Assembly: GCA_023078555.1 (NCBI GenBank)
Contig: CM041199.1
Location: 5,523,315-5,587,314 of the forward strand
DNA: 64,000 nt
Direction of reading: 5' to 3'
From: Ulva prolifera
Taxonomy: Eukaryota > Chlorophyta > Ulvophyceae > Ulvales > Ulvaceae
Shown here: positions 20,531-42,231 of the stretch, in pieces
Numbering within the stretch: position 1 is the stretch's first letter
Layout of the letters: the number at the start of each line of letters is the position of its first letter
Translations under genes and position numbers: made by a program
Notes under the pieces: model-generated
What the model saw: the letters and a program-made list of their open reading frames with translations, nothing else
The model's database searches: none
What the model was told of the DNA's origin: nothing

Positions 20531-23500
20531 ATGAGGCTTACCATATTCTGTGTTTGCTTTGCTGTCGCTGCAATTCCTGTGTCAGGGCAAGCCAGCGTGC
20601 GAACAGCTGCCCAGTTGGCAGACGCTATACGATCCGGAGAGCGGACAATCCGCTTGGACTCGACGGTCACAGGACACAGCAACGATGAGCTATCTCCAAT
20701 ACAGGCCTCTGAGCATTTACGTTACAGCGACTTTCCTGAGGTGCGCTAACCGAACTGCCCTGATGCGAGGCACGGCACGACATAAGCTTGCGCTCCGCTT
20801 CGCTCAATCTGCAGCACTCGTGACACTCTGCCGCATGTGCTACAATTAGCACGCATTGACCTACCACGTTGTTTCATTTAACTCCGCTCCTGTGACAGCG
20901 GAGGGATTCTGGACAGCGGCAGTTTGACTAACATAGTCTACCGTACCTGCTACGCACCTGCCTTACAAAGGTACAACGGAGTTATGGTAGACGTGTGGAC
21001 GTGAACTTGTGCGCCCGGGATCCTAGATCGTGGCGTGAACGCCGGAGGTACGATAATAGCTGCGCAATTGGCGTAAACGATGCCAATGCATCATGAAGGC
21101 CCCCATCGCCACGCACGAAACGGCAGCCTGTCGTGCGCGTATCCTCTACCCATCGCACTGTTCAAGGGTGTATACCACCCGTGAAAGCATGGTTGCTGGC
21201 CTTTGCGGTGAGATCAGCGTCACTGTGCCAACTGGTACAATGCGGTGCCACTTGATGGTGTGCGATTGTGAACAGGCAGCTGCAGCAGGTGGACGCGATT
21301 GTGATTGTCGGCTTGTTACCGTGGTAGAAGGACAAATACAGCGACGCGGGCAGCATCGCGAGCAGCTCGGACATATCTCAGAGATGTGCCCTGTGTTGGA
21401 ATGCAATGCCACAGTGCAATTGGTGCAATGCTGGCAACTGCACAGGTGATTCCTGCCTCTCTGCTGCTGCCCACAGGCAGCTGCTGCAAGCCTTCTACAA
21501 GTTACACATACCGGGCCATTGTATGGCAACGCAACTAAACAAACAGCTGCTGCAAGCCTACACCCCAGCTGGGTTCACTGCAGCTGCAGCCATTGCACCA
21601 CATCACCCCCAGAACTAAGCAGCGCATGGGGCATGGGGCAGCGAACAGCATAGCAGGCATGGCTGACCCAGAGTCTAGCTGGACTCTTCTCAGCTGGTAA
21701 ACGGTTGCTCTTCACAACAGCAGGCTGAATGCACCTCTCAGCAGGCAACCTGTTTGGCAACCTGTGGCTCCCCAGAGCATGCTGCACAGCGCTGCTACCT
21801 CTTCACCTCACCCCGCACATGTTATTGCTCTCATGAAGCAATTATTTCTCTCATGAGTTTCCATATCTCTGACAGTGACAGTGACAGTGGCAATGATTAC
21901 GCACATGGCCACACTCACGCCATGCCTGAAATCCCAACTTCTGAACACTGCAGCATTTGACCAAGCACCGTCAAGATCAGCAAACAGGCATCAAGGGGGC
22001 CAGCAAGGCTGCCTTTGGCGACCTGGACTGCATGCATGGAACCACACTCCCCCAAACTGCATTCCCTAACACTGCACCAATGCAGCAGAACTCTCGCTCT
22101 AGTGGCAGGTGGAATATGCATCATAAACTGAAGCCCCCGCATGCAACGATTCATGATCATCATCATCGGCATATGTATCTAAAGTGTGTTGGGTGTTTTG
22201 GGTCGATACTGATCGTGGGGAACCAAAATAAATATGCTGGTACATGCTGGGTTGAGAGCTCTGTTCATGGAGCATTTGATGACGTTATACTTGGTTGTTG
22301 TCCGGATTGTTTGCTGGGATGAGCTTTTGTGGTTGCTTGTGTGGCAGCCGGTCACTGGTTTGGCTTGGTGTGTTTGTTTGCTTTGCCATACAATGGCCCG
22401 GTATGTGTAACTTATTGAACTCAAAATAAAGATGCTGGTACATGCTAGCACATTCTGTGCCAACAACTGCTAGTGCGGAATCAGACAACCGCATTTCACA
22501 CAGGATATCCCTCCTCGTGCCTCGTACCTCGTACCTCGTTGTAGGGCAGGGCACAGCTGGACTTGGTGCAGACACCTGGAGGTGCACTACGTGTCTGTCT
22601 GTGGGCTGCTGTCAGATTGTGACCATGCACCTCCACAAGCACATCACAGTTTCGCATGCATGCATGCATTCATGCCGCAACATGCGTCACTGAAAACAGA
22701 GCTGAACACACATCATATCAGGCCCACACAGGCCGGCCAGCGGCCAGCGGCCTCCCTTTCCCCCCCCCCCCCCTCCAATTGCGCGCGCATGCATGCAGCT
22801 GCCGGAGCAGTGCGCGCAGGACGCGGAGGCGTGCGGGGGCGACGGCCGCTACGTGCACCTCTCGGTGCCGACGACCATCACCGGCGGCGGCGACGCGCTA
22901 TGGGACCTCGGCTTCCTGCGCCGCCGCGTCATCGTCTCCCAGAACGTCACCATCCAGTCCATGCGGCTACGAGTGCGCCCCCCTCCCCCCCCTTTCGCAG
23001 AGAGATGTTGAGGTAAAAGCGCCAACGCTGCAGCGTTGGTGCGCTGGAGGGTTGATAGTCTCCTGATGAGCGCGCTGGAGGGTTGATAGTCAACTGATGA
23101 GGATGGGATGCATAGACAGTGCTACTTGAGTGGCAGCCTCACTCGTAGCAGGTGTTCTCTGGAGTGTTCCGTTGTGGTGTCCTGCCGTGCTAGGGCCCGA
23201 ACCGGTGTCAGGTGCAGCGCCACCCTCGTGCCACCAGGGTGGTGCTGCTACGGCTGCTGTGGCGATGCCTACTGCGCTCTGGGCTTGTCAACCTCAGAAT
23301 CGGTTGTTTGAATCTTGATGTCGCTGTTCTCAATGTTGTGGTAGCGCATTCCCATGCGGTGGCCACGGGAGAGTGTCCAGATTCCGCAAGCGCTAGCTCG
23401 GCATGTGGCGTTGATCGCTTCGAAGCCATCCGAAGCCGAACAAAGCTGAACGAAGCCATCAACGCCACAGGGACCCTGGTGCAAGCCGTGGCTGCCACAG

Positions 23501-26500
23501 CCTGTTCACCCTCCGGTCACCACAATCAAGTGACAGCTCAAGCGGCCGTGGCAGCAGGAGCTGCCGGATCACCACTAGCCCGCCAGCTAGTCTCGCAGAT
23601 TAGATACGGACCAAATTCAAAACCAGATAATTAACAAGAGCTGCCGTCAGAGGGTGAGGCGGGGTGGCATGCATGCAGGGCCTCGTGTCGGGCACGGCGC
23701 CGTACGTGCTCTGGTTCTTCTTCACCGCCGACGCCGACCTCTTGTGCGATGGCTGCACCATCGAGCATGACTGCGCCGGCGGTAATGCCTCCTACTTCCT
23801 CCAAGACGTCGGCCTCGTACGCCCCCCCCCCCCCCCCCCCCCACCCTTTGTGACCTACACTCCTTGCCACTGTAGCAGGCATTGGCGGTGCCGAACGCAA
23901 GGGCAGCACCCATGTAGCCACCTGTTACAATGACGAGCCCCGCGGTCTTCCAATCCGCCGCGAATCTTGCTAAGACCCCGCCAGACACTTCCTGGGTGAG
24001 CGAGTCTGTCCTGATGTGGTGATGCCCCCAGCGCATTGCGAAGGCGCGTGCACACATTGTATTGGACTCGTAGCAATGAAGCCCAAAAGGACGACTGCAC
24101 TCGAACAGCAGCGAATCAACCAGCTCAGCTTATGACAGTCCACCGGGCTCGCCAACGACCAATCTGGGTTGAGGCCTGCTGCCCAAAACCGGCGGGTGCG
24201 CTGAAAGGTCTTGAATGCGGTCGCGCAGCATGCAGGCGGCGCTGTCGCAGGACACGGTGACGGTGTCGGAGGACGGCATGCGGGCGTGGGGCACGGTGCC
24301 GATGCGTGCGCAGGACGCCGCCCTCGGCACAACCTCCGGGCAGCTCTTCCGCAACAGCACCTGGGTGTGCACGCCGGCGGCCCCCCCCGAGCCCGGCCAC
24401 GCCGTCCGCCCAGACACCACGCTGCGGCCCGCGGAGTCCTGCCAGTTCGCGGCGAACGAGGTGCGGCCTCCGCCGATGGCGCCTGCCTGGTGGCCCTGTC
24501 GTGGGGGTGGGTGTGCATGTGTGGGGCTTTGCCGGGTTGCTTTGCTGTGTGCTGATTGCGAACGTGCATGCTCTGTGCTGACGTGCGTCTGGATGCTGGC
24601 TGTGGCTCGAGAGTCCGAGGCTCTGTTCCTGAGCTGCTCTCTGCCCGCCTCTCCAACCTTGCCCTGAACACACACATAATTGTCAGCAGCTTGGCTGGCA
24701 GACCTCTGCAGCAGGAACAGTCATGATGCTGCTAGGAGCCATATTCGGGAGGCGCAATCTTGAGGCTGCGGTCAGAATGACAGAGTAGATCGGTCGGAAT
24801 TTCGTCTGTTCGTCGTTTTGCTCTGTAGGAACATCGGCGTGAGAGATCTCTTGGTTCGAGTTGTGTCAAGATAGCGTCAATGTGGCATCATACTGAGATC
24901 AACACATTGATTCCAGGAGCATTTGAACGACTTGAAGCAGCGATATATGCGAAGCTTGATTCATCATCGACGTCGGCCTGCGCTCATTCCTCGCTGAGCA
25001 CTGTCTTTGCCTGACTCGATGCCTCTCTCTGGCGCGGCCACGAGTGCCTGTCAGCACTCATGCTTAGATAAATTACGCACACACCATTTTGATCGTAGTT
25101 TCGTACGTACGGACATGTTCGCGGCTGACGGCAGGCTAGACTGGACAACGAGGTATACCTGGATGGTCAGTGAACGCATTGCCATCGCCTTACTCACCTC
25201 GCGCCTATCACATAGCTTTACGTGGCGTAGCCAAGATCCAGCCACATAGTTGTCGCGTCCAGGTCAGGAATGCCGTGGGGTATGCAGTGAGGACGCGTCC
25301 CAGTCAGCGCGAACGCGAGCCCCAGCATCGAGAGCAGGCATGTTGCGACGGCGCGTCGAGGCCAGGCACCACTAGCAGCTTTGACAAATGTGGCGCTGGC
25401 GTAGACGGCGCGTGGCGGCCAGCCACGGTGCCGCAGTCCCGCCATGTGCACGGTGCAGGCTAGTCAATGCTTCGAATGCACATCTGCAGCCAGAGACTAT
25501 AGTCGATACTCTATAGAGTGCAGCCAGAAAATTAGGCGCAGCGGATGAGGTGTCTAGAGGTGGATAACAACAAGAAAAAGTGAGGCAGCCGAGTGCCACC
25601 TCGCCTCTTGCCTGCATCAGGTGATGGGAAAGGATCATGTTGGCACAGTGCATCAATCTTCGCAAGCACCTGATGCAGGCAAGAGGCGAGGCTGAGGCTT
25701 GCGAGGGAGCGCACACCAACACATGCATGCAACACATGTGTACACGAGGCCCCCAACTCGGCCCCATGTGGAGCCTCACCGCGGCCGCAGCTTTAACCCA
25801 TACAATCCCCTGTTCCACACACATCGGTGCCCGTTTGCATGCAGCTTCAGCCTCAGCCTACAATCATATCCAGCAGCTGTGTCGCTCCGTGCGTCAACGA
25901 CGGAAGCATTGCTACCACTCCGCACGCGGGGCCAGATGCACCCTGTGGGGTCGGGTCGGCCCGCATGCGATCGTCTAGCCGATCGTCTAGCCGGCTCGCA
26001 ACGCGTGGTGTCGGCTAGACGATCGCATGCGGGCCGACACGTCCCCACAGGGTGCATCTGGCGCCGCGTGCGGAGATCCCAAACCATTATGCAGTCACTG
26101 AGACTGCATTGATTTTTTTGTTTGTATGGTCGTTACATCTCACACAGCAGTTCAAGAAAAAGTTATGGGAAGGTCGTTGCGAGAAGAGTCTATTAAGGAT
26201 TGCGCATGGCTACAGGGGCGTTCATACCGGGGCACCCAGAACTTCACGCGCAGCGGCCACGCCTGCCAGCGCTGGGACGCCACGGAGCCCGTCTTCCACG
26301 ACCGCACCCCCGCGCGCTACCCCGCCGCTGGCCTCGTCGACAACTACTGCCGCAACCCTGACGACGGCGCCGAGGTCTGGTGCTACACTGTCGGCGTCTC
26401 CCCACACGTGCATGTTGTGTTGAGTGCCTTCGTCCCTGCAGGGCCGGTTTCGGTGTTGCACCTCTTGTGAGGTAGCACATCCGCCATGTTGAGTGCGGTG

Positions 26501-28861
26501 TCAGCACGGGGCCCTCCGAGGTTGGCCGTTGCTGCTTGGCCGTGGCCGCTTGGCCGTTGCCGCTTGGCCGTTGCCGCTTGGCCTTTGCCGCTTGGCCCTA
26601 GCCGCTTGGCCGTTGCCGCTTGGCCTTTGCCGCTTGGCCGTCGCCGTTTCTGTGTGTCGCGGTCGCCCGGTGAGTGCGCCCGTTTGATGGTATTGTAGTC
26701 ATTAGAAGCTTGCGTGAACATGCTTCGCTGTGTGGGCATAGGGTTCCCTCGGACCCCCGACGCCTGCCGCGTGCATGCCCGACCCGCATGCTGCGCGGGC
26801 TTGAGAACCCTCGCTGCGCGTATCAGGGCCGTAAGAAGGGAACACTGGCGGGGCCGCCGCTGGACGGCCGCCGCGTCGACGCACCCACTGCTGCTGGCGC
26901 CACCTGCGGATGGTGGAGGTGAGTGAGGGTGCGGTGCAGGCTGGCGCCATATCTCGGGCTGCGCGCGGGCGGACAGGGCGCGGTCGCGTTTGCGCAGCAC
27001 CAGCACGCCGTCACGCGGCTCTTTGCGATCAAGTTCTTCTACAGCGAGGAGGCCTTCCAAATCGAGCGGCAGGCCTCCCTCCTGCCGGTGTGTCACCCCT
27101 CAGCATGTCTGCGTACCGTCTGTCTGTTTCAGGTTCTGTCTGTGGTGAACACTCTGTTTGAGCGCAGAAGTGCTTGTATCGCAGAGCGCCATACACGAGC
27201 GCTATGCCATACAGAGCGCTCTGCCATGCAATCGCCCAAGCTACCGCAGCCGGTACCTCCTCCCTCGTGACCCCCCACATCCATTCCCACGTGCGCACCA
27301 TGATGATGGTGCACAGCAGACTCTACATCACAGCCATGCATGGCGGCCTCCGTGTGCTGAGCACGCCATGGCCACGCCGCGTGCTGTGACGCCGTGCTGC
27401 GCGTGCTGTGCAGGAGCTGCGCGCGCTGATGCCGCCGGTGGAGGTGACGGAGGAGCGGCCGGAGGCGCTGGAGGCGGCGACGGCGGCGATGCCGTGGCCG
27501 CTGTGCGCGCGGCCCCTGCCGCCGATGATCGTGACCGAGAAGGGCGAGAGCCTCGCCGACTTCGTGCGCCGCTCCGCGCCCGACTTCTTCACCTCGCTGC
27601 AGGTCCGCCGCCGCCGCACCACACGCATGTGCGAATTGCATGTGTCAAGTTTCATGGACCCGAGTATGGCTCTGGCCTGGTATAGGTGCCACGCACAGTC
27701 TGGCTTTTTTTGTTTGCGTTTGCTTCACGTGTGCTACCCCTGTGGCCACCTGTGTCAGCACCCACTCTCCCCATGCTACGATCTTCGGGACAGAGGTGTA
27801 CACTTGGTGTCATGCATGCTCGCGCACGGATGACGCTGGGGGCCAGCTGACTGCCAGGGTGGTAATGGTGTGGATTGATATCTGTGCATGAGGTGGATGC
27901 ATGTGCAGGTGATGGTGCACATCGCCGAGAAGCTGGCGCAGCTGCATGCGGCCGGGTGGGCGCACCGCGACCTCAAGCCCGGCAACGCCATCTGGCTGCC
28001 CTCCCAGAACTCCTGGACCCTCATCGACTTTGGCTGCGCCGCCCGCATCGGTGCGCCCCCGACGTGCCCCAGCTCCACACTTGCACCCGGGCCAGCTGCC
28101 GTGTCAAACTGTGAACTCCCAGTCTCACCATGCACAGCTCGCAGCGTCGGCGGTCAACCTCGTCTACTCACCTGAGCTTGTACAGGCGAGGAGGCGCCGG
28201 TAGGGTTCAGCCTGTACTACGCGCCGCCGGAGGTGGTGGCTGCGTACGATGCCGGCTGTAAGACGACGCTGTGTGCCGCTGCGATGGACGTCTGGGCCTT
28301 AGGGGTGCGCTCACCCCTCCCCTCTTGCCTACATCACCCCAACCCATCCGACCCCTTTGATGTTGCCGAGTGCCTCCTCCCCTCCCCTCTTTCGCCAGCA
28401 TTTCCGCACAGGCCATGCATGATCACTTCCCTGAGTGTGTGGGTTTGTGTGTCCCCACCGTGACGCCTGTGTGTGAGTCGGTCCAATTCTGTCCTCTCAG
28501 AGGCTCCCACGCACCGTGCATCCTCAGGCCACTCTCGCGCAGGCTGGCTGATACGTGTTCCGTATGGCTACAGGTGGTATGCTGGGAGTTGCTGACGAAG
28601 GAGCGGTTCTATGGCGCCGGCACGCGCTCGCACGCCGTCATCGCGCAGCTGTGCGGCCGCGCCGCGCTGCCGACGGAGGCCGCCCTCTGCTCCGACCTCT
28701 GCCGCCGCCTCGGGGGCGGCCGCATCTGCGCGTCGATCCTCTCGATGCTCTCGCGCGCCCCCGACCGCCGCCCCGCCGTCGGCGCGCTGCTGCGGCAGTG
28801 GAAGGCCGCATTCGGCCAAGCAGACGTCGATGGCGACACGCCGTCCGGTCTCGATGCGTAG
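20531..28861 (+). CDS. Kringle-domain receptor-like kinase 1 (RD kinase)
   Basis: Predicted surface receptor kinase; no named family recognised as a whole. Exons: 20531-20740, 22799-22972, 23679-23816, 24236-24460, 26216-about 26407, possibly about 26830-26918, 26940-27087, 27414-27602, 27909-28050, 28186-28304 and 28574-28861 (TAG). Exon 1 encodes a signal peptide followed by a pectin-lyase-like AAQLADAIRSGERTIRL segment. Exons 2-4 are Cys-containing, likely beta-helical rungs. Exon 5 is a kringle (YRGT, CQRW, LVDNYCRNPD, WCYT) whose last Cys exon was not found. The kinase has the Gly loop RAGGQGAV, FAIK lysine, HRDLKPGN, IDFG, YYAPPE and DVWALG, so it should be active. No transmembrane helix was located between kringle and kinase; an exon may be missing. 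Confidence 0.72.
21500..21545 (+). repeat. Dispersed repeat family, copy D (kringle kinase 1 intron)
   Basis: Short copy of the family core: GTTACACATACCGGGCCATT followed by GTATGGCA. It lies in the first intron of the kringle kinase 1 gene. Confidence 0.65.
22224..22446 (-). repeat. Dispersed repeat family, copy C, bounded by 25-bp direct repeats
   Basis: The minus strand carries the family core with the GGGCCATTGTATGGCA motif and the shared CTCCATGAACAGAGCTCTCA block. The copy is bounded by CAAAATAAAKATGCTGGTAC followed by ATGCT, present in direct orientation at 22224-22248 and 22422-22446 with one mismatch in 25. The bounding repeats could be a target duplication or part of the element. 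Confidence 0.7.
25600..25690. repeat. Perfect 24-bp inverted repeat
   Basis: The arms at 25600-25623 (starting CTCGCCTCTTGCC) and 25667-25690 are exact reverse complements with a 43-base spacer. They lie in the intron before the kringle exon of kinase gene 1. Confidence 0.85.
25920..26073. repeat. 63-bp imperfect palindrome (60/63) in an intron
   Basis: The arm 25920-25982 matches the reverse complement of 26011-26073 at 60 of 63 positions, with a 28-base loop. The inner end also contains a tandem GATCGTCTAGCC duplication. It lies about 140 bases before the kringle exon of kinase gene 1, could fold into a long hairpin, and has no coding frame. Confidence 0.88.
26530..26642 (+). repeat. 14-bp minisatellite in kringle kinase 1
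   Basis: A unit close to GCCGCTTGGCCGTT is repeated about seven to eight times with small changes (CCTTT, CCCTA). It lies between the kringle exon and the kinase exons, probably in an intron. Confidence 0.75.
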
Positions 28862-31800
28862 CGCGCCGCGTCCGCCACAAACACGCTTCGCTTGCGCGTA
28901 GGCACAGCGGTCACGTGTGCGCCGCCCATGCATGCAGTGCATCAGCCACGCAGCGATACAAACGAATCCTGCACGCGATCGCGGCTGCAGTCTGAGCTGG
29001 GACACGCGGGCTCTGCAGCAATTCGAGGTGCAGTGTTAGTGGAACATCTTCAAACGTCTTCAAACATGTTTGAACAAAGCTTAAGAAATGCGCCTGGGGG
29101 GGCGTCGGCTGCTCCCCGCACAGTTTGGCTGCAGGGGGCAATGCCTGTGGCTCACTGTGAATCTGGGGCGGCCCGGAGCAGAGCACAGCTGCTGGGCAGG
29201 CCTATGAGGGGCCTGTAGGGGCTGCTCAGTGTACACCCTCCAGGCACTGTAGATGCCACCTTGAATGTAGATCCGGCAGCAGTTGAGGCCATGCATGCAT
29301 GCGCTCATGCAGTTTCCAGCGAGTTGACGCGCGGCAGGTGCAGTTGACATGTTGTCCGTGGGACTTGGAGGATGCTTGACCCAGCCCCATGATGGTCTGG
29401 AGAGGTCCATGCATGGAGTTTCAGCATGCATCGATGATCAGGACGCCCTTCATATTGGGTTTCAGGTTGCTAGCGGCAGACGGCGTGGCGAGGCGGCTGC
29501 CACAGGTCTGAGAGATTTGTGTGAACGCTGTAAACAGATATGGTTTCGGTTGGTTGGCCCGGAGGCGGTGCTTGTAGTGTGCATGAATTTCACCGGATCC
29601 AGTGCATGTTTTGGGTGGGCTTTGGGATCGATGCTCATGCTTGCAACCCCTAGGCTTGCAAGCTTGTGGCATGCTCTGACTCTCGACCATGCAATGGCCT
29701 GGACACTTGTAACTTGATGAATATGGAGTAGGTATTCCGACATGAAACAGTTGAAGCATCGGTTCACAGCTGACAACAGAATGTTGTGTGTTACAAGGAC
29801 AAAGCCAGCGAACCGCAGGCCACAAAATGCTGTGTGCATGTTGCCATCGGGAAAGGTCCAGCTCGAGTTCGAGCTGAAATACACACAAGCACACAGCAGA
29901 GTTCACCTACGGCAGCTTGAATTACGATTATTTTCACCGGATTGTAGTCGATTGCTGAGATCGTCGGTGGCATCGCTGCGACTAGGCGAAGCGCTGCAGC
30001 CAACGCGGGTGTGCCAGTGTGAAACATCTACAGGCCGCACGGGCACGCAGTCATTGGCTATCTGCCTGTAGCGTGTGACTGTCATGATGACTGAGTGTCG
30101 GTTTGCGTGTCCTTGGACGGCATGCCGCTCAGTGGCTGGGAAATGGCCGTGCTGCAGCACAGCTAGCGAAAGGTCCACTGCGATGAACGACTCTGATGCC
30201 TTTGACCGACGCTGCCAGCGGCCCGCCATTGCAATGGGCCTCATGGTCATCACACGCGTGCATCTGCAGCCCTGTCCGAAGCATCGGTGTCGCCATCAAA
30301 TGCGCACCGAAGCCAACAGCATGGCATCAGTGGCCTACAGCTCATGCACGCTGTCCACCGCACGGAGTAGCCTGAGAACGATTCAATGGTGCAAATTTGC
30401 AGCGATGCTGTGGCGCCGCGGAGTCTCGCGGCACAAATGGCAATGCCTGAACGCGCTCGTAGCGCTCAACCGACTTTTTCTTCGAATTTCCCTTGACATA
30501 CGTTTGACATCAACAGTCAAGGGAAAGCAGCGTCGATTTCTGGAATGGTGCACCCATCTCGAGATAGCAGCGCGCTGTGTGGACAAGACCACCTTGTCCG
30601 GCCAGGTATATATGGGCAACACCAGCTGCAGCGTCGCCAATAATCGGCGGCCCCGTTATGTCACCGTTTGAAATCAGCTTTCAAATCTGCAATTAGCAAT
30701 GGCGCTGGTCCTTCAGTTCAAACCTTATCCTTTTCACACGTCTGCATGCATCGGCGGATGTGTACGGCCGATGTGCATTGGGCGCATTATGAGGTGCAGC
30801 TCCATTCATCCGTCGTGCCGGCTGCCGGGATGAAGTAACACTCACGTAACCTGATGTCATCTATGCATGCATTGCCATCACAGCCTGGGATGACCCCACA
30901 ACTTCATTGGTAGAAGAGAGACATACAACGCAGCCGCGGCAAGCGCGCCCAGCCGGGCACAAGCAGCCCACTCAAGTGGGGATGTATTGGCCAATGGATG
31001 TATTGGCTACTTTAGCTGCCAAACACCGCCAATGGGCATTGAAGCAATGCACGCCCCTCCCCCTTGGAATTGTTTCCTTTTTAACCATGTCCATACACTG
31101 GTGGTGAAGCTCTAGACCAGATCGATCTGAAACAAGGCTACAGCAGCGATCGCGTGGGTCTCATGAGTCCTTTTCGGTGCCCTGGCCAACGCGCCTGGGC
31201 ATCTCAGATTTGAGAGCTCGAGCTTTCAAGAATTCTGCAGACGTTCGCGCCCAGGACGTGCATGACGCCCAAGTGCACACCTGGACGTCGACTCCCGGGT
31301 CGACTAGTCCCTTGGTGCAGCAACATTCTGATGGTGTTTTCCCCGGGACTTCAAGTTTAAAGCTGGCAGTGCAAATGCTGCAGAACTCGTGCATACATAT
31401 GTGCAGCAATAGGCTAGAGTACGCAGAGTCTCAGGCGAGGTGGCCATAACTACACGTGGGGAATCTTGCGCGCGCTGACATATATGGCGTAAAAAAGATA
31501 TGATATGTCCGCCTTTCCGCCTCACCACCAGGCTGACTGACCACGGACTGTGGCAATACAAATGTGGCCTCTGCACTGGCCAGTCTTCTTGCGAGCAGGT
31601 CAGCGAGGCCTGGAGTACCATGCGTGGTGCACGTCGCGATTGGAAGTTTGTGATGCATGGTAGAAGCTTGCGATGGCAGCGCGTGGCTATGAAGGCAGTC
31701 CTCGTGAGTCATGCGGGTATGCCAGCTAGTGTGTGTTGCCTGACGGCCGTGACGAGGAACACCGGGACACCAGCAAGCCAGCACCATCGCTGATGCAGGC

Positions 31801-31957
31801 TGAGGGCCAAAGTCTCGAAACCTTGATGATATTTCTGAACCCCACACGCATCAGATGTAGATACCATGGCTCAGCGCACAGAGTGTCAGCTGTGGCAATT
31901 GAGACAGCATAGCTGAGCCGACACGTTCTGTTGAGTGTCGCGATGAGATTAACGTAG
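28862..31957. other. Intergenic region between the two kringle kinase genes
   Basis: About 3.1 kb with lower GC than the flanking genes and no recognisable protein. It holds a degenerate minus-strand copy of the dispersed repeat core near 29684-29722, and a stretch unusually dense in six-base palindromes at 31214-31308. A few frames of 100-200 codons occur (for example 30075-30671 plus), but they lack the codon bias of the neighbouring genes and match nothing I recognise. The promoter of kringle kinase 2 should lie at the right end. Confidence 0.5.
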
Positions 31958-34900
31958 ATGTTGAGCTTGATAGCGTCCGTTGCGGGCGTGATTGCTGCGC
32001 TTGCAGGTCCGCAGCGGGTGTTTGGGAAGGTCGTCGTCACCACAGCCTCGGAGTTAGCGGACGCCATCAGGGCCAGAGAGAGTGTTATCAGCATCGAATC
32101 CCGTATTACTGGAACAGCTAATGAGCAGCTTGTGCAAAACAGCGGGGTTTATGCACTGGAGCGCTATGACGACTTCCCTGAGGTGCCGTCCTTTCGACTC
32201 AGAACAGGAGCCCGCGTGCTGATCGGTGAGCACATTGCCCGAACTACCTTTCCGCCGTACTCTCTCGCGAGTTTTGCCATTGTCACGTTGTTGATCTGCT
32301 GCGCGTTCTTTTATCCGGCAGCCCGGCGCTGTTCTGCAGCACCGCAAGTTATCGTCGCTGGGCCCAGCCAACTGCACTGTCGTGCCTCTTCCGTGCATGG
32401 TCTCGCTTACGTGACAGCAATGAGGTACCACAGGAATGAGTCTGCGTTTTGTGTGTCGGGGCGCGCGAGCCTACGGTATCAACACTGCATGTCGCTCGAC
32501 GTTGCATATGCTGCCAATCTTTACGAGCAAACTGTGACGGCGGCTGAGATATCTCAGCCAAGCCAACTATGATCATGTACGTCAAAGTGTCTGTGGCATA
32601 GTTCGCAGCTGCTGTGGGCTGAAACGTGCTTGCTCCCGCCATTGTTCCGCCTGGAAACGCCACATGGCCTCTACACTCCTGCATGATTCGCATCCGCAGC
32701 AACAAGTGAACAGGAGCTGGACAGCCTGCAGACACATGCGGCTCGGATGTCATGGTGTGGATAGAAAAGCTCCGGCACGGTCGTGTGTTTCAAATCACTA
32801 GTGGATGCACTTCCAGCCTATTCGCAGTCACGCACTACACGGTTGTAACGCGTAGACAACATCTTTCGGAATTCGCTGCAGTAACAAGATTTCAGTAGCA
32901 ATCATAAGCTGTCCTCTCGAAGCAATCACAGCTCAGATCTGTAGGATGTGCACGCGATACGCTGCCTGGATCGTGGCCAATCTGCTCTCCAGATGGCCAG
33001 ACTTTTGGTGGCCAGACTGCACTCTAGTTCAGAGTGACATCAAAGCAGTGAGTGCATACATCAGGCGCCGGGGTCGTGTTGATCCCATTTCGGCCCGCGT
33101 AGCCACTCACCATGTGTTCCACGCTGCGCACTCCGCGTCTCCATCTCCCACACAGCAGTTCCTCGCACAGTCAACGTCTCTCAGGAGATAGAAAGTGCCT
33201 GCGCCATGTTAGGTTGCTGCACATGGAGGCCACCAGCACATCAGACACAGCACCCCGTAACGCTCACACCGCAGCCCATCATCGCCTGGCATGTACGTAT
33301 GCGATTATGCATGCGTGTTGGGGCGTCTACCTCCGCTGCTGGCATGAGTTACAAGGACAAAGCAAGGCAGGTAGCACCGCGAGCAACAACCTCCGCTGCT
33401 GGCATGTTTGTTTTTGCTCGTGTTGGCTTGCCTCACATAGATTTCCAATGGTGCCCTTTAGCAAGGCCACAACATGCCGTGCGTGTCCGTGATAGTCGTG
33501 CAACTAGCATCAACCAGTGCACTTCCTACCTCGGATAGTTCTTGTGAAGCCAAGGCCTGCGCAACCGTCGTGCACAGCTTCGAATTGGTTCTTGCGCCGG
33601 GCATGGCTGCATTGCAGTCGCAAGAAGCACCAGGACGTCGCCACCCAGTGGTGCCGCAAGAGGCAGGACCGCTCACACGTAACAAGCAGCGATCCCACCA
33701 ACAGACCAGTTCCCTACAGCTTGCCAAGTTTACGCCGTATGCGTCACAGCACATTTTAGCTCAGCTTGCCAACGAGTCATGCCAACAACAGTACTCAGCA
33801 TTGCCAGTGCGCATTATGGCATGCATCAGCCTGATGAGCATTAGTAGCACCTTGACCACCACATCCGTCCTCCAGACACAATTGAGTCAATGCTGTGGCG
33901 TTTGAATGCCTTCAGCCTGTGTTCAGCAGATCACACCCACAGCCACTTCACACAGCCACATGCACCATCGTCCACACATGCATGCGGCAATGCATAGCTC
34001 TCCCACCTGCTGACGACCAGTTCTTCATCGGTTGCCAGACGCTGCCTGCACCCTGACGTGAAGGCGCGGAAACCTGCATGGGTATCAGGCCAGCGCACAC
34101 CACCGAACAACACCCGCAGCATGTACCCGCTGCGCCAGGCAGCGTCTGCCGCAGCACGGCCACCCCGCCCCGGCCCGGCCCCCGGAGCCACAAACGCCCC
34201 GTCGTGTGAGCATGCGTACATAAACACCCTGCGGCGCCACCCGCCTCCCCTGCGTTGTCCCCGTAGCACACATGCATGCAGCCGCATGCGGCACACGTGG
34301 CGGGCGGTGCGGTTTCAACCCGCGCGGCGGTGCTGCGCAGGTGCCGGAGGAGTGCATGCGGGCGCAAGGGCCGTGCCTGGAGGACCCCGCGCTGGTGCAC
34401 CTCTCGGTGCCGACGACCATCACCGGCGGCGGCGACGCGCTGTGGGACCTCGGCTTCCTGCGCCGCCGCGTCATCGTCTCCCAGAACGTGACCCTCGACT
34501 CCCTGCGGCTACGGGTGCGCTGCCGTCACCACGGCCAACGCCTCCTGAACATCCCGCACACGCAGGAGGCGTTGCCTTTAACACACCAGTCCATGTCCTT
34601 TGCTGATCTGGCTGCTGCCACGCCTCCAGTGGTGGCCGAGCCGGCCGGGGGGCTCGCAACGGCCCCTTGCATGCCCGGCGAACAAGTGGGGGCGCCCATG
34701 CCAAATCAGGAATCGGAGGACACCATGTGAGAGCACCACCCCATGTGTGCCTGGGCTTGTCAACGCCGACGCGGCGGCGGCGTGTGCAGGGTCTGGCGGC
34801 CGACGTGCAGCCGTACATCTTCTTCTTCCTCTTCACGCAGCGCGCGTCCCTCGTGTGCACGAACTGCATCCTCGAGCACTCCTGCGCCGGCGGCGACGCC

Positions 34901-37900
34901 TCCTTCTTCCTCGAATCCATGCAACTCGTGCGCCCCCCCCCCCCCCCCCCCCCCCCGCCCTCTGCATGCATGCGTCCATGCATGCTGTTCCATGGCTGTG
35001 CTCTGGCACTGCCGAGGCCCAGGTGGTCATGTGCTCCTCTCTTCTCCCTGGCTGTTGTCATATGCCTGCTGGAACATGCCAGTGTCGGTGATGTTGGGCT
35101 TTGTCACGCGGAGGCGCCTGCCGCTCTCGCACACTGGTGTAGCGCAAGCACTGTTTGCGTGCTGGTCCCCTGGCGCCACCCGATCTGAGGGCCCACGCGT
35201 CCGGCGCGACGCAGCTCCCCCACAGACAAACGTGCCCTCCCATGCTGCGTGCTGCGTGCTGTGCTGTGCTGCCCAGCCACGGTCGCAGCCCGTCATCGCG
35301 GCCCTTTTGTCTGCCCAGCACACACAGCACGCACAGCACGCGCAGCGGCGTCACCCCCCCCCCCGGCCGTATGCAGGCAGCGCTGTCGCAGCAGAACGTG
35401 CGGGCGTCGGCGGACGGCATGAGCGCGACGGGCTCGGTCGTGCTGCGTGCTGCGCAGGACGTCACGGCGGGCACGTTCAGCACGCAGGAGTTTGTGAACG
35501 GCACGTTTGTGTGCGACCACAGCATCCTGCGGGGCGTCGCGCTCGACACGGCGGTGCGGCCGGAGGAGACCTGCCAGCTTGAAAGCGACGGGGTGCGCCC
35601 CCCCTCTCTCCCCTGTGAAGGTGTCTGTCCATGGCCTCGTCAGTGTTCATGAGTTGCACTATCCGGGCTGATTGGATGTGTTGGGGTGATCTTCTGATCG
35701 AGGTGTTTCGGCTGCGATGCGTTGTAGTGTGCTTCGGTGCTCCGGCATGCAACGGCTCGAGCTGTCGAGGTCTTTTGTACTCTCCCTGTTCCCCCCGTCC
35801 ACTCCTCCTACCTGTGTCACAGCTTGCGATGGCATGCGCAATTGCATGGTTGAGCTGCCACCCGGGATTGTATAGCTGACAAAACCCAGGTGACAGCACC
35901 TACTGACGCCTCTGCCCCTCTATGCGTGCGTATCAGGTCTTGAGCTCGTGTGCGTCAGATCCTTGCAGTGGTAGTTTGCCATGCATCGGCCCATGCACAT
36001 GTCAGTCCCAACACACCTGTAGCCACATAAAAAAAACGTGCCCCCGAAGCACCATCATGCCTCACTGGCACCGCATCAATCCACAACACCGCTGCAGGTA
36101 ATTAAAAAAAATTGGCTTGATGTATTTGTTTGCTTTGCCATATTTTGGCCCGATATGTGTAACTTGATAAACCGCTGCAGGGGAACTCGTACCGCGGCAC
36201 CCGCAACACGACCCGCAGCGGCTACACCTGCCAGCGCTGGGACGCCACGGAGCCCGTCTTCCACAACCGCATCCCCTCCGCCTTCCCCGACGCCGGCCTC
36301 GTCGACAACTACTGCCGCAACCCCGACAACGAGCCCGAGGTCTGGTGCTACACGATCGACGGCCCCCGGTGGGAGCACTGCGGCGTCCCCGTCTGCGACG
36401 CCGCCGCGCCGGACCCGGCGGCCGCGCCCGCCCCGGCGGCCGCGCCCGCCGTCGCAGGCGGTGGCGCCGGTGCGGCGGTGGCGGCCACTGGTGTGGCGCA
36501 GACGGACGCGAGTGTGGAGGAGCAGGCTGACGCGGTCGAGCCGGTGGCGGAGCCGGAGAGCGGCTCGGGGGACGAGGACGACAGTCGGACGGCGATGCTT
36601 GCGGGTGCGTCGGCTGCTGCTGGGTCAGCCTGATGCGGCCTACTGTCGATATGCCTCAGTGTCCGCGTCTCTGCAGGGTGAATTTGTGGCCACACCATGG
36701 CTTGCCATCCAAGTGTGGCAAACCCGGTGTTCCATTTCGAGGACCGCTTTGCTGCGCCACCACGCTCATGCAGGATTCATGCATGTGTACAGCTCGAGTC
36801 ACCAGCGCACTCCGAATGCACAGCAGCAGTCCCTTCCGTCCACCGCACGGACTGCGCCGGGAGTGTGCATGTGATGCACCCGGACTGCCTCGACGCATGC
36901 ATGACGGCCATGCGTGTCGTGCAGGCGTGCTCGCGGCAGTGCTCGTGCTGCTGGCCGCGGTCGCGGCGGTCGCGCTGCTGCTGCATCGGCGCCGCCGGCG
37001 GTGGAGCCGCGAGGCCCTCGCGCTCGAGGCCTCGAGCACTGCGACGAAGAACATCCTGTACGGCGGCAGCCACAGCAGCCGCGGCGACGATGACGCCTCG
37101 GGCAGTGGCGGCGGCGGCAAGGGGCCCGCCACGAAGAGCAGGGCCGCCCTGCTGGACACCGCGACTGGTAGTGAGAGTGCCGCGGAGGCCCCCACCCCTG
37201 GTGCCCTCCCCCGCTGTGCTGTCTGTCCAGGATCTGTGTGTTTGTTCTGCCAAGGCGTGGGGGTCTGTGTTTCGGATCTCCCACGCATCCCCCCCCGGCC
37301 CGCGCCAGCTGTCCATACACAGGGTCTGTTTTATGATCAAATCACAAGGCGTCCCGGGTTTTGGTCTGGGTGTAGCGCAGACACGCCGGACTGCTTTGCA
37401 GAGGCGGAGGAGGGCATGACGGCGGTGGCGCTGTCTGCCAGCGGCAGCGGCCGCAGCCGCCGCAGCAGCCGCAGCCGGCCGGCGCCGGCGGAGGAGCTGC
37501 GGGAGGCGCTCGCGGGCATGCAGGTCGACACGTCGCAGCTCGTGCTGCATGAGGTCGTCGGCCGCGGCGGCTTCGGCTGTGTCTACCGGGGCACCTGGCG
37601 CGGCCTGAACGTGCGATGCACCCTCTCGCCGCTGCGTCCATGCATGCACGCCTCCGTCAAGCTGCAGCGCCATGTCCTCTGTCTTCTGGCGCTGCGCTTC
37701 CGTGAGCTGGATTGTTTCCCAGGGAGTCGATCTGCGAGCCGGCGTTTCGCTGGTTGTGCATGCATGTTGGACGGCAGGCAGCGCTGCAGGCACAGAAGTG
37801 CGTATACTTTCATTTCATATCAGACCGGCAATACTGCAACAGGGCGGCTCGCAATCAGCACAGCAGCAGTCATGCCCAAATCATGCCGACTGCAGCGTCC

Positions 37901-40900
37901 TCCCATCAACAAGGGCCTGACCCCAAGCCCGCCATTCCAGATCGAGCCAGGCAGCTGCAGCATAATGGCTGCACCATGTGTTAGCTTGTATGCCACCATT
38001 GGCCCGTGACTTAACCCACTGCTCTCAATGCCGTCACATGACGTGCTGCTGACGTCGCCTCCAGTGCTGTTCAGGTTACACATATCGGGCCATTGTATGG
38101 CAGATCAAGCAAACGAATCAACTCATCCTCCACACGAACGAAAACCAAACAACAGTCCTGCCGACCATCCTCCAGTGCTGCGGACCACCTGGAGTGCAGT
38201 GGTCACGGTGGAGGCACCCGAACAGGGCGAAGCACTTCCTTACACCTCCAGCGCATGCGCAGGTGGCCGTCAAGACGGTGACGTTTCAAGAGCGCAGCAC
38301 TGGCGGCGGCGCGCAGGCACGGGCCATCGCCGAGGCCGCCATCACCTTCTCCCTCTCCCACCCCAACGTCATCGCCACCTACTTCCACGAGATCAAGCCC
38401 CTCCATGCCGCGGCGGACGGCGGCACGAGCGGCGGCGTCGGCCACGCGGTGCTCGCCGACGAGCGCCTGCAGGACTGGAAGCTCTTCCTGGTGCAGGAGT
38501 TCTGTGAGGGCGGCTCGCTGCGGCACGTCGTAGATCAGCGAGGGTTTGTGAACCAGGCGGGGCGCGTCAAGCTGGTGCGCTGCGTTGGTGTATTGCGTGC
38601 ACGCCCAGTCTGCATGCGTACAGGCACATGAGCGTGTGTGCCTGAACATGCTGGGCGTGCCAGCTGCGACGCGCCCGGCGACGGGTCCACTCAATGACAG
38701 AACAGCGGTTGGCTCGGCCACAGACAGCGATCTCGATCTCCAATCCGTCCTCGCGGACGGAATGCAGCCGATGGATCATTCCTGTGAAAGCTTGAAATGT
38801 ATGACTTCTTCGCACAGTTTTCAGAAGCTCGCGGCTTTCACTGGCCCATGACTTTTCCATAGCTGCGTGGCTGACGGTGGCGCCATGTGCAGCGTAAGTG
38901 CGTGGAGTGCCTCGTGGACATCGCCCAAGGCATGGAGTACATCCAGTCGAAGCAGGTCATCCACGGCGACCTCACCCCCTCCAACGTCCTCGTCCGCCCC
39001 CACGCTACCCCCTCCACCCCCTCCGCGTCCCCTCACGCGTCGAGCCCGGCCTGTGCCGCGGACCCGTCACCCGTCCCCACCCCCCTCCCCCTCGCCTGCC
39101 CCCCCCCATACAGCCGAGGCAGCGCCGCCGCGGCCCCCCGCGCCTGGCACATGCTGTCTGGAGCCTCCGGCTCGCATGCGGATGCCGCAAGCAGTCCGGC
39201 CGTACACGCCGCGGACACGCCGTCGCAGAGCGTAGATCACGCGGCGGCATCTCCGGCGATGCCGCGCCCACCGGTAAGCCTACCGTCGCGTGAGCAGGGG
39301 TGGTACAGCCCCTCCGCAGAGCCCCCGGCCACACCCTCCCGGGACCCGCCCCTGCCGCAGCCAGCCCCCCCCGCCAGCGGTGCCTCTGCATCGCAGTTCT
39401 TCTCCGCCGTGGAGTCGCTCGCCCCTCCGAACGCCCCGGACGGCGGCGGGGCAGACATGCATGACGGCCATGCGTTGCGAGATCGGGGCGCCGCCGACGC
39501 CGCGGAGCAGGCGGAGGCGGAGGAGTGTGCAGAGCACATCGATGCCGCGCCGCCGGACGGGGCGCATGCGGGGCCGCCGGACGCAGCGCGGCTGGCGCTG
39601 ACGCTGCACCAGCCTGCGCGCGCGTACCAGGCCAGCCCCTACAGCAGCAGTGCGCCCTCCCGCTCTTCATCAATATGCATGCAGCCCTTGATGTTTTTCT
39701 GGGGAAGTCACCGTAAACGGCGGTGTTGTTTCGGCTGCGGGAGTGTGTACCTGTGCACATGCCCACACTCCATGCATTGCAGTACAACATGAGTCACGGT
39801 TGATTCATACCCACTCTGACCCAGCCGGAGGTTCTGGAACCTGCGGACGAAGCTTGGCGCAGGCTTGCGTTTGCGTCTGTCAGCGTCGCCCTCCGCATCC
39901 ATGCACGCCATGCATACACGAAAGGCATCGTTCTGCTCCGCCACAGTGATCAGCAGGCATCACATCTCATCATGACATCAGCAGCAGCGTGTGCGCTTCA
40001 GGGGAGGGGTCGCCAGCGGCGTGGGACACGGAGCCATGGCAGGCGACGGCGAAGGTCAGCGACTTTGGGCTCAGCATGAAGCTCGACCCCGCGGCGGGCC
40101 ACATCAGCAACATGCGGCAGGGCACGCCGTTCTACGCGGCGCCCGAGGTGCGGGACGCAGGCTACCTCTCGCAGGCCGCCGACGCCTTCTCCTTCGGTGC
40201 GCTCCCCCCCCCCCCCCCCCCCCCCAGCATGCACTGCAGTGTCGACCATCCTCTCGCGAGGGTGCATGCGTTGTATCGCCATCACACCACCCCCAAGTAG
40301 CCCCCTCACACAAGGACCCTGTGTTGCAAGGACAAATTCAGAGTGGCCGGTAGCACCGCCAGGGCAACAAACATGCATGCCGCCACCCCAATGCATGCAC
40401 GGCAGGAGATGCTCACCTACGTCGAACCCGAACACGGCGCCGAAGCACAGCATGACAGACACCCACCGAACACGCACCATGGGCTCTGTGCATTGTGCCA
40501 CTGACTCCCGTAAACTCAGAGTTGTCAATGCCCAATAATATACGGCTCAGTACATTCAGATTTGCTTTACTTTACCAACGCGCCGTTCATACCCCTCCCC
40601 CCTGCCCACGCCCCTCCGGGGTGGGTACCTGCCGTGAATCGTGAGTCTGTGGCGGCCCCTCCTTGCCTCTGGGGCTCGCATGGCCAGTTTCGTCTTGGGT
40701 GCTTGGTGGGTTGGGCTGGACCAGGAATGCTTCAACGATGTGACACGCAGGCTGTCGCAGTGCTCACCCGTGCAACGGCCTGCCGACGTCTTACCAGGGC
40801 CCGAATGCAGGCGTCATCATGTGGGAGTGCTTCCACTGCGCGCCGCCGTACCACGTCAACCGCGGCGGTCGCGTCGTGCGCCACCCCAGCTTCCCGGACT

Positions 40901-42231
40901 TCACGCGGGACTGCCCCCTCTCGTTCGCCGTGCTCGCCGTCTCCTGCCTCTCGGAGAACCCTGCCGACCGCCCGGACTTTGCGCAGATCTGCGGCGTGCT
41001 GACAGACCTCGCGGCCCACCTCCGCGGCGAGGGCGACCGCGAGACTCAGTCCGCTCATCTCACCCTCACACAGGTCCGTGCCTATCGGCCAGGCAGGTTA
41101 CACCCTTGTGGTGGCTGTGGCATGTGTTCCCCTTACATGCAGTGGGCTGGTGAACATGATCCTGAGCTGCTCGCTGTCTTCGCGGTGCTGCCTCGTCGCC
41201 TTGGACCTTGTAAGATCGAGGCAAGAGCTCGGGCCATGCATGTGATCCTGTGCTGTGACTGCCCATGTGTGTACGGCAGTGCCTGCGCCCTGAGGGATCC
41301 ACTCCTGATGTTAGGGACGACCCTTGTCGGGTGGATCTGTCATGCTACGCCCAACCCACCGCCGTCTGCTTGCAGCACGTAGCACCCATAGCCCCTCATA
41401 CACAGCACGCAGCAGAACCCAAACGTACTCGTGATCACATACATGTGGCTCTGATTTGAAAACACACGCATGCAGCTCGAGAGCCAGGACGGCGGCGGCA
41501 GCCCGGCGCCGGCGGCGCTGCCGAGCGCTGACGGGGCGGGCTCGGCGATCAGCGGCATCCTCAGCCGCACCGCCGGCGAACGCCCCGCGGCTTCGCGCTC
41601 CGACAGCGGCATGTCGTTCCTGGTGCGCCCTCCTGCCCAGCGGCTCGCACGCGTGTACTGCCCCTGGAATTGGGATGCCTGCTGTGGTTGCTTAGGAATA
41701 CACATCACGGCAGTTCGGCCGTGCTGCTGTCTGCCATGACCCAGCCTGTCCTCGCGTGCACCAATGCGGTTGGTCGGCATCAGACTGTGGGCAGAAGCTG
41801 CAGCGCCAATCGCACGCCTGGCGTGTCCACGCTGCGGTCCCACGCAATCTGTGGTGTTGGGACCTGTTGCATGCCCATGCATGACGCCGCTTGCCGCGCA
41901 GGGCCCCTGCCGGCCGCTCGCGGGCCACAGCACGTCCGCGCTGCAGTCGGTGCAGGACGTCATCCGCAGCGTCACGGCGGGCCGCGCCGCGGACCGCGCG
42001 CACCTCCTCGCCGCGCCCCGCGCCGCCCTCCCCGCCGGCAGCGGCTCCTCCCCCTCCGCCTCATGGCCGCGCAGCGCGGGCCGCGCCCACGCCCTCCACA
42101 GCGGCTCCGCGCCGCCCTCGCATCCCTCCAGCGCCTCCGCGGCCGCGTCGTGGCATGGGGGCGCGCAGCACAGCTGCCAGGAGACCATCCCAGAGGAGGA
42201 CGCAGAGCAGCATGCCGGCACAACAGAGTAG
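31958..42231 (+). CDS. Kringle-domain receptor-like kinase 2 (non-RD, TKL-like)
   Basis: Complete model of 13 exons, 1,221 residues: 31958-32182, 34341-34514, 34790-34927, 35377-35592, 36181-36604, 36925-37200, 37402-37610, 38263-38574, 38893-39649, 40002-40196, 40811-41073, 41476-41622, 41902-42231 (TAG); phases agree throughout. Order: signal peptide; beta-helix-like ectodomain matching kinase gene 1; complete kringle (SYRGT, CQRWD, LVDNYCRNPD, EVWCYT, WEHCGVPVC); acidic Ala-rich stalk; transmembrane helix VLAAVLVLLAAVAAVALLL followed by HRRRRRW; cytoplasmic kinase with GRGGFGCVYRG, VAVK, HGDLTPSN, SDFGLS, YAAPE and DAFSFGVIMWE. The catalytic Asp is preceded by Gly, so it is non-RD, as in many algal TKL kinases. 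About 220 low-complexity residues separate the catalytic loop from DFG. Ligand unknown. Confidence 0.82.
36113..36172 (-). repeat. Dispersed repeat family, copy E, abutting the kringle exon
   Basis: The reverse complement reads GTTACACATATCGGGCCA followed by a TATGGCAAAGCAAACAAA tail shared with copies A and C. It ends eight bases before the first base of the kringle exon (36181), so part of the 3' splice region derives from the repeat. Confidence 0.7.
38075..38172 (+). repeat. Dispersed repeat family, copy B (kringle kinase 2 intron)
   Basis: Nearly identical to copy A over about 98 bases, starting GTTACACATATCGGGCCATT and continuing through CTCATCCTCCACACGA. It lies in the intron before the VAVK exon of the kinase. 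Confidence 0.8.

Follow-up and report, generated by a model that had tools for sequence, protein, structure and literature searches.

The gene pair and its genomic setting

The DNA analyzed in this study, referred to as the window, is a stretch of 64,000 nucleotides from the green alga Ulva prolifera (assembly GCA_023078555.1, contig CM041199.1, positions 5,523,315 to 5,587,314). It contains two neighboring genes on the plus strand, gene 1 (20531-28861) and gene 2 (31958-42231), in which exons for an ectodomain and a kringle are followed by exons for a protein kinase. Positions are those of the window unless another contig (C1, C3, and so on) is named. The window is located on an 11.2-Mb contig of a genome of 88.9 Mb in 44 contigs. 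An earlier note on this DNA had described the genome as algal in type, which agrees with the nuclear genes for the RuBisCO small subunit (best solved matches 1ir2, 7jfo, 9hvm and 1gk8, of which 1gk8, 1ir2 and 7jfo are presumably Chlamydomonas structures) and with 38 pieces of light-harvesting genes; no RuBisCO large subunit was found in the genome search. The start codons at 20531 and 31958 and the last stop codon at 42229-42231 were recovered at the positions given in the earlier note, as were the four ectodomain exons that match between the genes.

Structure and predicted product of gene 2

Gene 2 has a predicted structure of 13 exons, in which all 12 introns have GT-AG borders and all phases agree. 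The donors start with gtgc in 10 of the 12 introns, and the acceptors end with gcag in 11 of them. The predicted product has 1210 residues and consists of a signal peptide, a region encoded by four ectodomain exons, a kringle, a stalk, a membrane helix and a kinase. Exon 1 (31958-32182), placed by phases and the ectodomain alignment, contains the start codon, the signal peptide (judged by eye, as in gene 1) and the N-terminal ectodomain. The ectodomain continues in exon 2 (34341-34514), which is supported by a codon-use scan, phases and the ectodomain alignment, in exon 3 (34790-34927), for which the scan and the phases are joined by a match to a single-frame stretch at C1:8435389-8435880, and in exon 4 (35377-35592), which has the same support from scan, phases and the match to this related locus and ends with the presumed first cysteine of the kringle. 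Kringle cysteines 2-6 and a stalk of alanine, proline and acidic residues are encoded by exon 5 (36181-36604; 79.9 bits in Pfam and up to 85.6 bits against solved single kringles), while exon 6 (36925-37167) encodes the transmembrane helix and a basic juxtamembrane stretch. The helix is unambiguous, with a mean hydropathy of 3.17 over 19 residues, as the earlier note had proposed.

The kinase begins in exon 7 (37402-37610), with the remaining juxtamembrane part and the glycine loop, and continues with the N-lobe and its VAVK motif in exon 8 (38263-38574), both identified from phases and Pfam. Exon 9 (38893-39649; open frames and phases) contains the catalytic loop HGDLTPSN, which we take not to be the tyrosine-kinase form, and, ahead of DFG, an insert of low complexity that is about 215 residues long. 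The DFG and APE segment in exon 10 (40002-40196) and the C-lobe in exon 11 (40811-41073) are again supported by phases and Pfam, and a C-terminal tail is encoded by exons 12 (41476-41622) and 13 (41902-42231, including the stop codon), both placed by codon scan and phases. Inspection by eye showed that the catalytic residues in VAVK, HGD, DFG and APE are present.

The codon-use scan, which was trained partly on the gene 2 exons themselves, identified 12 of the 13 exons (exon 1 was missed) and no additional plus-strand segment within 31501-42500; on the minus strand, one segment overlapping exon 13 was found. Comparison of the whole protein with Pfam at E-values up to 1 gave kringle (residues 251-323, 1.2e-20) and kinase (7.6e-36) models only, and no immunoglobulin (Ig) or Frizzled domain. 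The ectodomain, for which a beta-helix-like part had been suggested, has no family match in Pfam or NCBIfam, and a fold of the single-frame ectodomain exon from the related locus on C1, made without relatives, had a mean predicted local distance difference test (pLDDT) score of 33.9.

Kringle loci in the genome

A six-frame search of the whole genome with the Pfam kringle family (PF00051, cut-off 34.3 bits) identified five pieces at four loci, with all eight candidates scored. These are gene 1, gene 2, locus 3 and locus 4, whose kringles score 71.9, 79.9, 67.3 and 41.3 bits, respectively, in Pfam scans of the translated exons, the last on a guessed join. The corresponding six-frame search gave no matches in 14 control genomes. 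Later genome searches with loci 3 and 4 yielded no further kringle locus except one weak match at C5:2579427 (E-value 0.14). Loci L053 and L054 proved to be the window itself. An origin of the kringle in viruses or prokaryotes is disfavored: none of 36 pattern matches in viral contigs was confirmed by tblastn, and neither was any of 69 prokaryotic pattern matches, in a search with a single protein query that reaches close relatives only.

All six kringle cysteines are present in gene 2, in locus 3 and, on the guessed join, in locus 4, and four in gene 1. The first cysteine was assigned by conservation and spacing, as the alignments to solved structures begin after it, and it is invariant across all four kringles (alignment A2). 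Since the presumed first cysteine ends exon 4 in both genes 1 and 2, exon 4 must join exon 5 for the kringle to be whole.

A search of the genome with the ectodomain of gene 2 at E-values up to 0.1 produced 12 pieces, every one of them in one of the two window genes or in locus 3. Locus 3 (C1:8434308-8436251) is 32% identical to gene 2 over the entire ectodomain, and its four assembled exons have agreeing phases. Within it, a single open frame (C1:8435389-8435880) spans gene 2 residues 134-283 with 29% identity (E-value 1.6e-5) and thus covers exons 3 and 4 of the ectodomain together with the kringle's first half. The assembled exons lead to a membrane-helix exon that starts in phase 0 and then to kinase exons, the latter joins being assumed. 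Intron 1 is located at the same FP/E position as in genes 1 and 2, in phase 1 versus phase 0 in the gene pair. At locus 4 (C1:12598361-12599448), a single frame of 656 residues includes both the final part of the kringle and a membrane helix, with kinase exons downstream. These related loci appear to answer much of the question of whether the kringle and kinase exons of gene 2 belong together.

The two kinases

Against solved structures, the gene 2 kinase scored highest with MLK4 (91.9 bits), MLK1 (84.3 bits) and TAK1 (80 bits). A profile built from three kinases, those of gene 2, locus 3 and locus 4, gave MLK4 (122.8 bits), TAK1 (116.8 bits), CTR1 (110.4 bits), B-Raf (103.1 bits) and the Src-Abl ancestor (100.6 bits). 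No ROR kinase and no RLK/Pelle/IRAK kinase was present among the best 60 of 1709 solved matches to the gene 2 kinase or the best 60 of 2322 to the profile. These comparisons favor assignment of the gene 2 kinase to the tyrosine kinase-like (TKL) class, nearest to MLK and TAK1, with a margin that is not wide: MLK4 leads Fes by 12.7 bits with gene 2 alone, and with the profile its lead is 22 bits over the Src-Abl ancestor and 7 bits over an EGFR entry. The first solved matches to the gene 1 kinase were TAO, PknA, GSK3 and PAK, the top one being TAO3 at 37.1 bits and none of them close. On these scores, the kinases of genes 1 and 2 are of different families. As the earlier note had claimed, both genes do contain kinase exons, and in gene 2 these match the Pfam kinase model, but the kinases do not form a matched pair.

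Both kinases belong to numerous sets in this genome. Searches yielded at least 143 pieces for the gene 1 kinase, including its own (best 138 of 445 candidates scored), and at least 88 for the gene 2 kinase, including its own four (best 138 of 221 candidates scored). An upstream segment with a membrane helix was flagged at six of nine sampled kinase loci (3/4 of the gene 2 type and 3/5 of the gene 1 type), a sample in which L044 yielded no segment and the kinase of L045 was itself unflagged. Because three of the five sampled loci have such a segment, the gene-1-type kinase may often be part of a receptor. Putative receptor kinases that combine varied ectodomains with either of the two kinase families are very numerous and clustered, comprising loci L046-L050 as well as arrays at 7.2-8.7 Mb on C5 and at 0.56-0.72 Mb on C7. 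Divergent tyrosine kinases are on record for Chlamydomonas, according to an excerpt of PMC8662651.

Gene 1 resembles gene 2 in its front half only

The front half of gene 1 corresponds exon by exon to that of gene 2. Exon 1 (20531-20740), which was missed by the codon scan, contains the start codon, the signal peptide and the N-terminal ectodomain, has a donor in phase 0 and shares 32 of 68 residues with its counterpart. Identical residues amount to 42/58 in exon 2 (22799-22972), 22/46 in exon 3 (23679-23816), 34/71 in exon 4 (24236-24460), which ends with the presumed first cysteine, and 44/60 in the kringle exon (26216-26395). Exons 2 and 3 have the same lengths in both genes, 174 and 138 nucleotides, respectively. 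The identity is patchy, with synonymous differences ranging from 0.14 to 0.75 by exon, and local alignments of the introns reach scores of merely 22-48, the top one in a run of C. The kringle core CQRWDATEPVFH, reported earlier as shared, is indeed identical in the two genes. The claim of a kringle in both genes was borne out to the extent that both exceed the PF00051 cut-off, but the gene 1 kringle is not whole: its exon, with cysteines 2-4, ends just past the fourth cysteine (..WCYTVG), and cysteines 5 and 6 are missing.

Downstream, five kinase exons were identified from open frames, phases and comparison with L048, a relative of the gene 1 kinase that was chosen for high exon identity. Kinase exon 1 (26940-27087) has an acceptor that requires a phase-2 donor, and L048 shares this intron site and its phase (judged by eye). 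It is followed by kinase exons 2 (27414-27602), 3 (27909-28050, with HRDLKPGN and DFG), 4 (28186-28304) and 5 (28574-28861, with the stop codon). The codon scan found eight of the 10 gene 1 exons, kinase exon 4 being the second one missed. Over 278 residues, 162 are identical between gene 1 and L048, with proportions of nonsynonymous (pN) and synonymous (pS) differences of 0.30 and 0.46. The catalytic exon 3 is well conserved (39/46 identical; pN 0.07 versus pS 0.38), and the last exon is without constraint (pN 0.46, pS 0.45).

The two halves of gene 1 do not fit together readily. The obvious end of the kringle exon is in phase 0, which mismatches the phase-2 donor required by kinase exon 1. 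A low-threshold coding scan of the gap between kringle and kinase gave only one stretch of 12 residues (26845-26880, score 5.7), and a missed exon for the kringle tail or the membrane helix seems unlikely, as the tail, stalk and helix of gene 2 align to the gap with scores of 32-48 only, partly across stop codons. Roughly where the membrane-helix exon would be expected, the gap contains a 14-nucleotide minisatellite (26494-26675, found by repeat search), whereas L048 has its own strong membrane-helix exon directly upstream of the kinase. The simplest reading is that gene 1 is probably a chimera or a decaying gene. An inverted repeat with 65-nucleotide arms, 95% complementary, was observed in the gene 1 intron preceding the kringle (25918-26075).

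The kringle and its lysine pocket

Against solved single kringles, the gene 2 kringle scored highest with apolipoprotein(a) (85.6 bits), plasminogen (80.8 bits) and an HGF kringle (79.7 bits), followed by ROR2 (66.7 bits) and ROR1 (55.7 bits). A profile of all four kringles placed plasminogen (92.8 bits) and apolipoprotein(a) (89.6 bits) at the top among single kringles, with ROR2 at 79.4, ROR1 at 79.1 and chains with a single HGF kringle at about 76 bits. The lysine pocket in kringle 1 of plasminogen is formed by Asp55, Asp57, Arg35, Arg71 and Tyr72, as given in an excerpt of PMC9736318. At these sites, mapped by manual counting in the structure alignment, gene 2 has Asp, Glu, Asn, Arg and Trp, so that four of the five positions are retained, two of them with conservative changes, and Arg35 is lost. 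Position 57 is lost in locus 3 and in gene 1, which also lacks 71 and 72, and both acids are lost in locus 4. Only for the gene 2 kringle is it therefore plausible that lysines are read. A more elaborate proposal, that an independently evolved algal receptor kinase uses its plasminogen-like kringle to read exposed lysines on protein ends and thereby reports proteolysis of the alga's own surface or of its neighbors, seems to us decidedly unlikely.

Other features in the window

A dispersed element of about 50-60 nucleotides occurs in both orientations at 15377-15403, 21501-21527, 22385-22411, 36137-36163 and 38075-38101. Four of these five copies are located in introns of the gene pair, and shuffled sequences (n = 100) gave a mean of 0.00 matches. 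Its core has 79 exact copies genome-wide, with dense and possibly centromeric clusters on C3 (about 8.30-8.39 Mb), C6 (about 2.21-2.30 Mb) and C7 (about 4.58 Mb). Another surface receptor may be encoded on the minus strand at 55275-58396, where a membrane helix accompanies cysteine-rich segments whose EGF matches fall below the Pfam cut-offs. At 17051-19172, a P-loop segment (AAA_17, 20.7 bits) precedes one that weakly resembles the phosphodiesterase domain of fungal tRNA ligase (16.2 bits); both scores are below the cut-offs, and the region perhaps encodes a tRNA ligase. An exon for a TruD pseudouridine synthase, over the Pfam cut-off, was identified at 5046-5411, and a 78-nucleotide satellite (16.4 copies, 98% identity) is located in a region of strong GC skew at 59350-60629.

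Interpretation of the gene pair

We consider it quite probable that gene 2 encodes a single-pass algal surface receptor, whose family has three or more such members in the genome, and that gene 1 is, most likely, of chimeric origin. The signal peptide would send the gene 2 product to the membrane, where an alga-specific ectodomain and a membrane-proximal kringle would face outward, followed by the stalk, one helix and a TKL kinase with an H-G-D loop. The ectodomain and kringle may bind an extracellular protein or peptide, the receptors may cluster, and the kinases inside the cell could phosphorylate one another and downstream proteins on serine/threonine. In gene 1, the front of a gene-2-like gene would have been placed before the kinase half of a receptor from the other family, with loss of the kringle end and the membrane exon, as suggested by the different kinase family, the truncated kringle, the phase clash and the absence of the membrane exon seen in L048. 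The earlier description of both genes as receptor kinases thus does not hold for gene 1, which has neither a clear membrane helix nor a whole kringle.

Several observations weigh against this interpretation. The N-terminus of locus 4 was not found and no signal peptide was identified there by eye; its kringle, as well as the kinases of loci 3 and 4, were scored on guessed joins, and these two kinases have DAG and DLG where DFG is expected. The ectodomain seems to be under weak selection, judging by the comparison of gene 1 with gene 2 (pN 0.29 versus pS 0.38). With regard to the kinase class, Fes, the top tyrosine kinase listed for gene 2 (79.2 bits), scores above CTR1 (77.9 bits) and B-Raf (75.2 bits), and ULK1 (116.0 bits) and the EGFR entry (115.5 bits) follow just below TAK1 in the three-locus profile. 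Finally, the genome search scores the best candidates only, and the four kringle loci are a lower bound.

Two other readings of gene 1 were considered. It may comprise two units, with ectodomain and kringle forming a secreted fragment and the kinase part being an independent remnant: the kringle frame meets an in-frame TGA at 26468-26470, where the fragment would end, and with the phase clash there is no obvious splice from kringle to kinase. We regard this as rather unlikely, given the membrane-helix segments upstream of three of the five sampled gene-1-type kinases, and it overlaps with the decay reading. Somewhat less likely still is that gene 1 also encodes a working receptor, with a kringle exon that extends to a donor after 26466 (CTCTT before the junction and GTGAGG after it) and a read-through that serves as the membrane helix. 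This donor, the sole one in phase 2 spotted by eye, gives an open reading of 628 letters, and because it keeps the frame open a functional product is possible; the kinase exons are intact, and the changes in exon 3 relative to L048 are mostly silent. However, the kringle would be without cysteines 5 and 6, and the read-through has no coding signal and only a weak hydrophobic stretch (hydropathy 2.0, as compared to 1.92 for the signal peptide), which abuts the glycine loop of the kinase with no juxtamembrane stretch ahead of it. In L048, a separate strong membrane exon occupies that place, and the last gene 1 kinase exon is unconstrained.

For gene 2, the kringle and kinase exons could be derived from different genes at all loci, the receptor being an annotation artefact. 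This is very improbable, as ectodomain and kringle are united in one frame at locus 3, and kringle and membrane helix in one frame at locus 4, while exon order and phases agree throughout gene 2 and, in locus 3, up to the start of the membrane exon. We give next to no weight to the reading of gene 2 as a ROR receptor, acquired by descent or by transfer from an animal. The kringle beside the membrane helix and the kinase inside are shared with ROR receptors, and the four-kringle profile ranks ROR2 and ROR1 over several single HGF kringles. Yet TKL kinases rank first and ROR kinases are absent from the best 60 solved matches in both comparisons, Pfam gave no Ig or Frizzled domain at E-values up to 1, and with the gene 2 kringle as the only query, apolipoprotein(a), plasminogen and an HGF kringle score above ROR2. 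Moreover, the splice-site style of gene 2 is common to gene 1 and locus 3, and the gene sits on an 11-Mb contig.

Comparison with known systems

In ROR receptors, a tyrosine kinase is combined with an Ig domain and a Frizzled-type cysteine-rich domain. Like ROR1 and ROR2, gene 2 has a kringle that adjoins the membrane, a single helix and a kinase inside; unlike them, it lacks a match to Ig and Frizzled models, and its kinase ranks first with TKL kinases. Because the kinase is closest to MLK and TAK1 and neither extracellular domain was found, the likeness to ROR looks convergent, in line with the independent origin of the layout proposed in the earlier note. The TKL kinases MLK, TAK1, CTR1 and B-Raf are mostly cytoplasmic. 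Among solved structures, the gene 2 kinase is matched best by MLK and TAK1; it differs from all four in its H-G-D catalytic loop and in the insert before DFG. The predicted gene 2 protein has the features of a TKL receptor kinase, namely a signal peptide, a single helix and a TKL kinase with its catalytic residues.

The kringle is best known from human blood-clotting factors and has been studied mostly in animal blood and development. Apolipoprotein(a), plasminogen and HGF are secreted into the serum and carry protease or protease-like domains, and gene 2 shares with their kringles the equivalents of the acidic pair, Arg71 and the aromatic residue at position 72. Outside animals, the kringle was listed as 'Euk' in an excerpt of a 2007 domain survey (PMC2394772), and the apicomplexan CRMPA is a further non-animal surface protein with a kringle, which differs from gene 2 in having nine membrane helices and, in the excerpt of PMC9815656, no mention of a kinase. 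No algal kringle receptor kinase was found in the literature searched, most subscription journals being outside its coverage. If the reading of gene 2 is true, this green alga would combine a kringle and a TKL kinase in the ROR-like layout of a module outside and a kinase inside, built from different parts. Signaling at the algal surface would then gain a ligand-binding module with a well-known and directly testable pocket, and the patchwork structure of gene 1 suggests how such receptors may become reshuffled.

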